Shown in pieces: positions 1,172 through 63,500 of a stretch of DNA of 64,000 nt. Both the position numbers and the translations under genes were made by a program. How positions within the stretch are numbered: position 1 is the stretch's first letter; every line of letters begins with the position of its first letter. The stretch lies in the NCBI GenBank assembly GCA_030263375.1, contig SZOV01000005.1:1-64000 (forward strand), in the 5' to 3' direction. The notes under the pieces are model-generated. The model ran no database searches. It was given only the letters and a program-made list of their open reading frames with translations, and was not told the origin of the DNA. The DNA is from Deltaproteobacteria bacterium PRO3 (lineage in GTDB: Bacteria > UBA10199 > DSSB01).

Positions 1172-2893
1172 TCAAATGCCCAGCGAGGGCGGGGTCGCTT
1201 CGCCCGCGGAGGCGGCGCCCGCGCCGCCGTTGCTGTTCTGTTGGGCGTGGTTGGGGCCCTCCGGCAGCGGGCGCTGGGGCTCGTTGGCGGCCAGGCGCAG
1301 CGGCGGTGAGCTGCTGGGCGTGGCGGCGCCGGGCTCGGGGTCGTAGGGGGCGTCCTCGACGACGGCGACCGCCGCCGCGGGCAAGGTCTCGCCCGGCTCC
1401 AGTTCCAACCCCATCGCGTCGACGAAGACGCGGCGGTTGAGGGGAAACCTCAACTCCGCCTCCGGCAGGACGGGGCGCGAGGAGAGCGCGTCGCGCTGCG
1501 GATCCAAGGGGCGGAAATCGACCATCCAAGCGCCCGTCGTTCCCTCGCGGAGGTGCAAGACGACCTCCTTGCCGATGGAATTCAAGCCGCGAATGTCGAA
1601 GACCGCGCCGGGCTCGGTCTCGGGGCGTTCCGGAAAACGCAGGCGGAGCTCCGCCCCTTCGCATCCCTCGACGCCCGCGAGCGACGCGCCCCAACCGCTC
1701 TGCGCGAGCAGCACGCCGCGCAGGCTATCCCACGGGAGGGTGCCGCGGCCCTCGTGGCGGAGGTAGGCCATCAGCGCCTCGCGGCGCTGGGCCGCGGGCA
1801 GAGCGCCGTTTTCCATCGCCTCGAAGAGCAGCTCCGCCGACCAGGGCGCGGGCGAATCGCCCAGCGCGGCGAGGACGAGGTTCCATTGCGAAAAGTCGGC
1901 CGCGGCCTCGGAACCCTCGCCTGCCCGGGAACCGCGGTCTTCCACGATCATGGAGACGTCGCTCAAGAGCCCGCGCCACCAAGCCGCCTCGGGCGGGTGC
2001 GGCGCGCGGGCCAAGAGGCGCAGCATGAGATAGCGCGTCGCCACCGGCTCCTCCGGGTCTTCCGCCAGGGAGCGGAAGACCTCACCCGCGTCGGAGCCGT
2101 TGTCGAGGCTGTCGGCGGGAAGATAGCTCAAGGCGCGGGCGCGGCGCTCGGTCGCGGCGCGAGGGTCCATCGCGAGGTTTTGCAAAAAGCGGATCGCCGC
2201 GGGATGCCCGTCGGCGGCCAGGCCGCAGGCGCGGGCGATTCGCTCGTCGAGGGAAAGCGCCCCGGCGTAACGAGGGGCGACCGCCGCCTCGCTTTCGCGC
2301 AAGAATTCCGTCGCGTCCCGATCGCCCGCCTCGGCCAAGACCCGCGCGCTGCGCATACGCAGGACGGGCTCCGCGGCCGCGAGATTGCCGCGCAGTTCCG
2401 CGACGAGGGCGCGCAGGAAGGAGTCCTCGGGACGCAGGTAATGATAGACGCCGAAAGTGGGGGAGCCGAAGGGCATCGCGACGAGACCGGAGGCGCCGAG
2501 GCCGCGCGGCAGCAGCGCGGCGAGTTCGCCCAAGGTCTCGGCGGAGACGGGCGTCTCCCCGGGCACGCGCGGGTCCGAGGCCAAGCGCGCCGTCAAGTGG
2601 CGCGCGTGGTGCCGCCAGGCCTCGCGGCCGTCCGAGCCGGCCAGGCGTGCGATCAGGGCGCCGGGCGCCGAGCCCCGCAGGAGGACGCCCCGCAGCTCCA
2701 GGCAACCGAGCAGGTCCAGCTGCTCTTCGGAGGAGAGGAAGCGGTCTTCCAAGGCCGTCGCCAAGGCCTGGGACTCCGCGGAGGAAATGCGCAGATCCTC
2801 GCGCAGGCGCGCGGCAAAATCCTCCGTCTCCACGCAGGTCTCGCGGAGCTCCAAGATACGTCGGCTTAAGGGAATTTCGTGGAGAGGGGTCAC
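1172..2893 (-). CDS. Large soluble protein of unknown function, alpha-helical repeat-like
   Basis: I do not recognise this family. From a GTG start at 2893, with AAGGAAG just upstream, it encodes about 574 residues beginning VTPLHEIPLSRRILEL. A longer reading to 3034 adds basic, non-protein-like residues and was not used. The middle is rich in Ala, Leu and Arg, with repeated helix-like blocks such as 'RMRSARVLAEAGDRDATEF' that suggest HEAT-like repeats. The C-terminal third is more beta-like and ends in a Pro/Asn-rich tail. No signal peptide or membrane segment is visible. It lies upstream of lexA on the same strand with a gap of about 155 bases. Confidence 0.6.
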   Translation of the reverse strand: MTPLHEIPLSRRILELRETCVETEDFAARLREDLRISSAESQALATALEDRFLSSEEQLDLLGCLELRGVLLRGSAPGALIARLAGSDGREAWRHHARHLTARLASDPRVPGETPVSAETLGELAALLPRGLGASGLVAMPFGSPTFGVYHYLRPEDSFLRALVAELRGNLAAAEPVLRMRSARVLAEAGDRDATEFLRESEAAVAPRYAGALSLDERIARACGLAADGHPAAIRFLQNLAMDPRAATERRARALSYLPADSLDNGSDAGEVFRSLAEDPEEPVATRYLMLRLLARAPHPPEAAWWRGLLSDVSMIVEDRGSRAGEGSEAAADFSQWNLVLAALGDSPAPWSAELLFEAMENGALPAAQRREALMAYLRHEGRGTLPWDSLRGVLLAQSGWGASLAGVEGCEGAELRLRFPERPETEPGAVFDIRGLNSIGKEVVLHLREGTTGAWMVDFRPLDPQRDALSSRPVLPEAELRFPLNRRVFVDAMGLELEPGETLPAAAVAVVEDAPYDPEPGAATPSSSPPLRLAANEPQRPLPEGPNHAQQNSNGGAGAASAGEATPPSLGI

Positions 2894-3120
2894 GGGGCTT
2901 CCTTGTCTTCGTGCAAGGTGCCTCCGCCGGATTATCTTAAAGCAACACGCGTGCCAGGAACCTCGTGGGACCTTAGATAAAAAACCTTTTAATTTCGGAT
3001 AATTACTAAAACAGACTGCGGAGCGGCGTCCCACACGAAGCCGAAATCTGTGGTCTGATCTCCCCGGAAGGCCTTCGGCTGAGTAGCCCAGACCTCCACG
3101 AATTAATCTATATTAATCAT

Positions 3121-3246
3121 TTCGAAACCTACGACGCGTTCTTGAACGGGTGGCCGGGCGGGGGCCCCCCGCCGCCCGCAGCTTGCGAGGACGGTGGGGG
3201 TGCAGCCCGGACAGGTCCCGTTCAAGAACGCGTCGTAGGTTTCGAA
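3121..3246. repeat. 30-bp perfect inverted repeat with a GC-rich 66-bp interior
   Basis: Positions 3121-3150 (TTCGAAACCTACGACGCGTT onward) are the exact reverse complement of 3217-3246. The interior contains a second GC hairpin (GGCGG...CCGCC type). The surrounding region is non-coding and the unit would fold into a long stem. It sits about 110 bases from tRNA-Val and next to a copy of that tRNA's 3' end. Confidence 0.8.
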
Positions 3247-3257
3247 CTCCTTATTAT

Positions 3258-3275
3258 TGGGCGAAACAGGGATTG
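3258..3275 (-). repeat. Partial duplicate of the tRNA-Val 3' end
   Basis: GGGCGAAACAGGGAT followed by TGAAAC repeats the acceptor/T-arm end of the intact tRNA-Val at 3357-3374, with a similar TTATTATT/AATAATA-like flank. This is what an old attachment site or tRNA-targeted insertion leaves behind. Confidence 0.5.
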
Positions 3276-3285
3276 AAACGATTCG

Positions 3286-3310
3286 CTCAGCCGGAGTGAA
3301 TCCGGCTGAG
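3286..3310. repeat. Short hairpin CTCAGCCGGA / TCCGGCTGAG
   Basis: This is a perfect 10-bp inverted repeat with a 5-base spacer and no T run, between the tRNA-Val fragment and the intact tRNA. Its function is unknown. Confidence 0.5.
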
Positions 3311-3355
3311 CCAAAGCCGGGTTCGATCCCCAAAAGAAATTTATCTACAATAATA

Positions 3356-3429
3356 TGGGCGAAACAGGGATCGAACCTGTGACCTCTGCCTTGTAAGGGC
3401 AGCGCTCTAACCAGCTGAGCTATTCGCCC
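3356..3429 (-). tRNA. tRNA-Val (anticodon TAC)
   Basis: The minus strand reads GGGCGAATAGCTCAGC at the 5' end. The anticodon stem-loop is CTGCC-CTTACAA-GGCAG, giving anticodon TAC. The T arm contains GGTTCGATCCC and the acceptor strand TTCGCCC is followed by A. All four stems pair. The CCA end is not encoded. Confidence 0.95.
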
Positions 3430-3553
3430 GATCGCTTGCGCAAGCCAAGGCCTAACGGCATCGAAAGGCCCGGGTCAAAGAAAAAATCCCCTCTCCGTGA
3501 CCCGACCCCCGCCTTCCGCTATCATCGCCCTGAACAAGCGAAAGGAGAAGCCC

Positions 3554-63201: not shown

Positions 63202-63500
63202 TGGCGCGCCCGGCAGGAGTCGAACCTGCGACCTACGGCTTAGCTTACCACTATGGTTTTCACCACCCCCGATAGCTCGAGGTTTGTGGTCTGGACTATC
63301 TCTTCACCGTTTCAGGTGCCGCACGTATAGTCTCTACGGATCCCGGCATGATTCGCCGGTTTCCTCGGGATTGCCATCGACATGACTCGGGAAGGTTCCC
63401 CCGATACAGTGCGGTCCACTTAACGGGTTTCGTTTCCCCGTCAAGGCTCCTAGGTATATGGCTTAAAGGCCGTTGCTCTATCCAGCTGAGCTACGGGCGC
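63202..63500 (-). tRNA. tRNA-Arg (anticodon TCT) interrupted by a group I intron
   Basis: The 5' exon (63466-63500) reads GCGCCCGTAGCTCAGCTGG... up to ACGGC-CTT. The 3' exon (63202-63243) reads CTAA-GCCGTAGGTCGCAGG... to the acceptor end GGGCGC-G with encoded CCA. Joined, the anticodon arm is ACGGC-CTTCTAA-GCCGT with anticodon TCT. All stems pair only after removal of the 222 intervening bases. The split falls after T34, within the anticodon. Confidence 0.93.
63244..63465 (-). ncRNA. Self-splicing group I intron (IC3-like)
   Basis: The 222-nt intron follows an exon U and ends in G, as group I introns require. The P7 strands are GAGACTATAC (63325-63334) and GATAGTCC (63293-63300), the latter within the hallmark GAAGAGATAGTCC. 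Near the 5' end GGAGCCTTGACGG...TTAAGTGGA resembles the P2 region of the cyanobacterial tRNA-Leu intron. A P4-P6-like GC-rich domain lies between. No homing endonuclease frame is present. Recognition is by eye. Confidence 0.88.

Follow-up and report, generated by a model that had tools for sequence, protein, structure and literature searches.

What is a 222-nt insertion doing inside the anticodon of an arginine tRNA gene, and can the genome that carries it manage without removing it? The gene concerned, tRNA-Arg(TCT), lies on the minus strand at positions 63202–63500 of the window (the whole 64,000-nt stretch of DNA that we analysed), which belongs to a 3.55-Mb assembly of Deltaproteobacteria bacterium PRO3. 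We label this genome G000, and other G and L numbers denote the genomes and loci compared with it. Read on its own strand, the gene consists of GCGCCCGTAGCTCAGCTGGATAGAGCAACGGCCTT, then 222 nt that start with TAAGCC and end with GGTAAG (63244–63465), then CTAAGCCGTAGGTCGCAGGTTCGACTCCTGCCGGGCGCGCCA, so the interruption falls after T34. The 5' exon (63466–63500) supplies tRNA nucleotides 1–34 and ends in CCTT, with U34 at the splice site; the 3' exon (63202–63243) starts with C35, U36, A37 and A38 and includes an encoded CCA. With introns allowed, ARAGORN called a minus-strand tRNA-Arg(tct) interrupted by 222 nt ('gcctt-Intron-ctaag'), reproducing exactly the host and boundaries given by the initial annotation, and with introns disallowed it called no tRNA at 63202–63500. 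The exons make a complete cloverleaf with anticodon TCT, both in the spliced sequence and when ARAGORN is run on the genomic stretch. An encoded CCA ends just 17 of the 44 tRNA genes of this genome, and the intact orthologues in genomes G001 and G006 do not have one.

The inserted element is a group I intron of ordinary build. A covariance-model search with RF00028 matched it over model positions 1–253 of 253 at 40.7 bits (E = 1.9e-8), a score below the Rfam gathering score of 50; the full-length match bears out the group I assignment made initially, and genome-wide it was the sole such match in G000 (E = 7.8e-9). Its fold is more stable than expected from dinucleotide shuffles (z = -3.25, with 0 of 200 shuffles as stable), and the pairs of core helices P3, P4, P6, P7 and P8, including the P3/P7 pseudoknot, are all present. 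When the intron is folded alone, the centroid structure has P2, P3, P6, P8 and P9. The gene and a homologue from Gammaproteobacteria RIFCSPLOWO2_02_FULL_61_13 (L092) align over their entire length (83.6% identity, E = 9e-81), and this homologue shares with the window gene the tRNA, the interrupted bond and the intron core, as does genome G003. The core letters presumably resemble those of the Azoarcus intron closely. The absence of P5abc and the location in a tRNA gene would fit subgroup IC3 but are no more than a hint.

Covariation among introns at the same site supports this structure. Scanning named genomes for a pattern of P7' followed by the 3' exon of a split tRNA-Arg(TCT) gave 67 loci; 49 of them (among which L110 is G003), together with G000, G004, G013 and G023, have a recognised 5' exon ending in CCTT and provide 53 complete introns of 212–674 nt. 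We scored the pairs of the window model on an alignment of these 53 introns, with ORFs cut out, against column shuffles. In contrasts that are somewhat flattered because column shuffling ignores relatedness, the fraction of cells paired is 94.5% versus 71% shuffled for the P2 hairpin (intron nt 21–29 with 39–47; 63419–63445), 95% versus 64% for P3 (5' strand CCGCAC, nt 52–57, 63409–63414; 3' strand GUGCGG, nt 142–147, 63319–63324, placed by the alignment and the predicted fold), 97% versus 77% for P4 (5' strand nt 62–67, 63399–63404; partner 63365–63370), 91% versus 69% for P6a (P6/P6a hairpin 63338–63364, with a 7-nt loop at 63348–63354), and 99.5% versus 74.5% for the P8 hairpin CACC-UGAAAC-GGUG (63305–63318), all on the minus strand. 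The P9 domain (63247–63290, minus strand) comprises a closing stem, ACCAC/GUGGU (97% versus 77%), an inner hairpin, CCUCGA/UCGGGG, and a GAAA-capped P9.2, GUGGU-GAAA-ACCAU (97% versus 60%), and all three appear in the predicted fold. Two-sided changes are many among these paired columns. The two outer pairs of P5 did no better than shuffles in the 53 introns.

Two helices stand apart from this test. The P1 guide GGAGCC (nt 16–21; 63445–63450, minus strand) pairs with exon GGCCUU, with U34 facing G and C32 facing A as a mismatch; GGAG and exon CCUU are invariant in 53 of 53 introns, and the main P1 pairs thus lie outside the covariation test. P7, the guanosine-binding helix (GACUA, nt 134–138, 63328–63332, with UAGUC, nt 168–172, 63294–63298, minus strand), is invariant in the set by virtue of the search pattern used and hence also lies outside the test, and in a phage tRNA-Arg(TCT) intron a compensated version, GGCCA/UGGCC, replaces it. 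The exon U (facing G in P1), the terminal intron G (63244 in the window) and the P7 strands on which the initial annotation had based its call are seen in the window and throughout the 53 introns, and the P3–P7 core, present here, covaries in relatives.

The conservation extends to the tRNA itself: rebuilt across the intron, the anticodon stem pairs in 264 of 265 cells of the 53-intron set, as it should if the spliced tRNA is functional. Removal of the intron also appears to matter to the cell. We found 45 tRNA matches in the assembly, 44 of them with assigned anticodons; for arginine these include acg, ccg, cct and tcg but not tct. A second, intact tRNA-Arg(TCT), which the initial annotation had named as something that would count against its reading, was found in G000 neither by family search nor by pattern nor by searching with the spliced sequence, which returned the two window exons (96–100% identity) and otherwise full-length tRNA matches of at most 84%. 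Because no other tRNA-Arg(TCT) was found, splicing is presumably essential, and since AGA makes up 3.2 per 1000 codons in long ORFs of the window the split gene should be needed. It seems to us very improbable that the intron has instead decayed and no longer splices, leaving a pseudogene, and that a tRNA not captured in the assembly decodes AGA. That scenario could draw on the one change at an otherwise invariant base, intron nt 68 in J4/5 (G in the window, A in 31 of 31 lineage relatives), which might weaken P1 docking, but the window intron keeps the other 96 of 97 lineage-conserved columns, its core helices are all intact and its two exons form a perfect tRNA. It could also draw on tRNA-Pro(TGG), which likewise was not found in the G000 assembly though CCA codons should need it; this is probably an assembly gap, and it means that the assembly may lack genes, perhaps including a second tRNA-Arg(TCT), and that the tRNA set may be incomplete. 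The genome's estimated completeness of 100% speaks against the decay scenario.

We consider it very probable that a group I intron splits, and is spliced from, the sole tRNA-Arg(UCU) gene found, and that this intron, now without an ORF, descends from a mobile lineage carrying PD-(D/E)XK endonucleases. The explanation is based on sequence, structure, covariation, the single copy of the gene seen in the assembly, an empty site and ORF-bearing relatives, from which we infer splicing, the endonuclease target and mobility. In the pre-tRNA, the intron would fold into a P3–P8 / P4–P6 core; guanosine bound at P7 would attack after the U34·G wobble of P1, the freed U34 would next attack after the terminal G of the intron, and exon joining would yield a normal tRNA-Arg(UCU), the reader of AGA.

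The link to mobile elements comes from the P6 loop, which is the site of an endonuclease ORF in related introns. The initial statement that no endonuclease is encoded is true of the window copy, where the 7-nt loop occupies this place, whereas tRNA-Arg(TCT) introns of several other bacteria have a PD-(D/E)XK ORF or remnant there. Within the family and class, the orthologous introns measure 337–674 nt, and their P6 loop holds such an ORF or what is left of one: 162 aa in G023, 141 aa in G004, a shorter or broken frame of 123 aa in G013, and a short remnant in G003. The products of the first three are PF11645 PD-(D/E)XK endonucleases resembling I-Ssp6803I (E = 9e-27 to 1e-37), and the G023 protein matches PDB 2ost, which we take to be I-Ssp6803I, with E = 4e-4. 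Judged by these sequence comparisons, the window copy has lost the endonuclease ORF borne by its relatives. It would be an ORF-less derivative of a mobile lineage with a PD-(D/E)XK homing endonuclease in the P6 loop, and that endonuclease would most likely act on tRNA-Arg(TCT) genes without an intron, cutting them in the region of the anticodon. I-Ssp6803I was described from an intron in tRNA-fMet of Synechocystis PCC 6803 (PMC1995217). Like the window element, that group I intron interrupts a tRNA anticodon loop, and its endonuclease family (PF11645) is that of the ORFs in the window's relatives, but its host tRNA differs and the window copy has no ORF.

How did the intron reach this gene? 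Within the same family, G003 (Deltaproteobacteria OFTM172) and G004 carry the intron amid the same neighbouring genes as the window copy, and class members G013, G020 and G023 also have it, for a total of 6 of 46 genomes. In the same-genus genome G001, the genes that flank the window locus (for a DUF11 protein and a rhodanese-domain protein) enclose an intact tRNA-Arg(TCT), and G006, of the same family, has an intact gene adjoining the rhodanese gene. The window exons are 95–99% identical to split genes of two other genera of the family and of Gammaproteobacteria, and 88% and 81% identical to the intact orthologues of G001 and G006. This pattern fits homing with co-conversion, to which guide-sequence constraint might contribute. 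We give an even chance to arrival by homing, with another bacterium or a phage as donor and with co-conversion of flanking exon sequence. Besides the greater likeness of the exons to gammaproteobacterial split genes than to the intact orthologue of their own genus, it is favoured by the intron-less site in that genus and by phages, in which both such introns and free-standing kin of the endonuclease next to an intact tRNA-Arg(TCT) are seen. However, trees do not single out a donor, the exon likeness could instead reflect guide-sequence constraint near the splice site, and the window copy is now without an endonuclease. Vertical inheritance in the bacterial family, with precise loss in G001 and G006, is a serious contender to which we assign a little under an even chance. 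It accounts for the shared neighbourhood and nearly identical exons of G003 and G004 and for the graded decay of the ORF from full to remnant to none, and a clade of the three family members was not rejected by a tree test (p = 0.44). It requires clean losses in the two genomes whose exons are the less similar ones, though, and the free tree places the window intron beside gammaproteobacterial introns, with weak support (86/55).

The initial annotation regarded tRNA-Arg(TCT) as a noteworthy host for this type of bacterium, but the host is not special to it. The same bond is interrupted by introns in phages and in members of at least seven phyla (67 named loci, 49 with both exons recognised), and these tRNA-Arg(TCT) introns are the nearest relatives that we found for the window intron. 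Hosts include Gammaproteobacteria, Bacteroidota, Acidobacteriota, Desulfobulbales, Omnitrophota, Elusimicrobiota, Bacillota (two Shimazuella isolates among them) and 'Deltaproteobacteria' of the window's class; two pattern matches, L109 and L133, in which the 5' exon was not seen, may be due to chance. The tree contains at least three groups. One is the window's own; the second is mostly Acidobacteriota with one sequence each from Omnitrophota, Elusimicrobia and Clostridia; and the third, with longer P7–P7' spacing, comprises Desulfobulbales, Marinomonas and one Chitinophagaceae sequence. The host is common across phyla and phages and is no single-genome curiosity.

Among viruses, we found split tRNA-Arg(TCT) genes in 9 IMG/VR contigs, three of which also show a split tRNA-Leu(TAA) nearby. 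The 484-kb uncultured phage LR756508.1 (L189) has introns in tRNA-Lys(TTT) (193 nt) and tRNA-Arg(TCT) (175 nt), at 2866–3134 and 3265–3516, neither of which was listed by an Rfam scan at E 0.001. Just downstream of these genes is a HEARO RNA (RF02033, 144 bits; L189 3664–3888). Three viral tRNA-Arg(TCT) introns of 617–654 nt encode an HNH_3 protein (PF13392) near P2 in place of the PD-(D/E)XK enzyme (L192 3576–4130, minus strand; L197 2593–3093 and L199 1469–1978, plus strand). In 7 of 9 viral loci, the distance between a free-standing PF11645 gene and an intact tRNA-Arg(TCT) is 7–68 nt, although several of the nine are near-identical and the independent cases fewer; the neighbour on the other side of the endonuclease gene varies (Leu, Thr, Val or Arg). 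Examples are L190 1860–2435 and L200–L205, as in Synechococcus phage Sf-FR1. Their arrangement suggests homing without an intron at the same target. Plasmids were rejected as carriers, the matches being short exon pieces alone. In a broader reading, which we think has equal chances of being right or wrong, the U34–C35 bond of tRNA-Arg(UCU) would be a recurrent homing target common to bacteria and phages, settled independently by unlike architectures (PD-(D/E)XK in P6, HNH near P2); phages with free-standing endonucleases would aid spread between phyla, and the window copy would be a worn-down descendant. The empty site in a sister species, the ORF-bearing relatives and the phage endonucleases together make a testable case for tRNA-gene homing across distant hosts.

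The cyanobacterial and plastid tRNA-Leu(UAA) intron sits after U34, and Agrobacterium tRNA-Arg(CCU) contains an intron. The former, cited in PMC4033280, is a small group I intron in the tRNA anticodon loop, like that of the window but in a different tRNA. As of 2007 the bacterial tRNA genes hosting group I introns numbered four (PMC1995217). Group I introns are known in tRNA-Ile2 of Acidovorax and Burkholderia (PMC8450103, which names fMet and Ile2 and whose tool was not designed for detecting such introns) and in tRNA-Ile of Azoarcus (PMC3984707); like the window intron these are small bacterial tRNA introns without P5abc, but in other tRNAs. According to a 2014 review, the phage introns seen by then were in protein-coding genes (PMC3984707). 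A search of the open literature, outside which most subscription papers fall, turned up no account of introns in tRNA-Arg(UCU). The window element is of a well-known kind, in a widespread but apparently undescribed host, and tRNA-Arg(UCU) joins the few bacterial tRNAs described in the open literature as hosts of group I introns. Unless introns are allowed for, tRNA-finding software overlooks the split gene, so such genomes look unable to read AGA.

Other group I introns are frequent in the window's class, with matches in 23 of 40 relatives searched (at loci within L010–L038; for example L012 c1448–1764, L024 1481–1768, L014 c1452–1764, L025 1481–1778 and L037 c1433–2167). The tRNA hosts assigned by ARAGORN include Asn(GTT), interrupted after U35; Lys(CTT), Thr(TGT), Thr(CGT) and Met(CAT), interrupted after U33; and Leu(TAA). 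A 23S rRNA also hosts a group I intron among these relatives. This range of tRNA hosts within one class goes well past the four named in PMC1995217, and may merit attention over the window copy.
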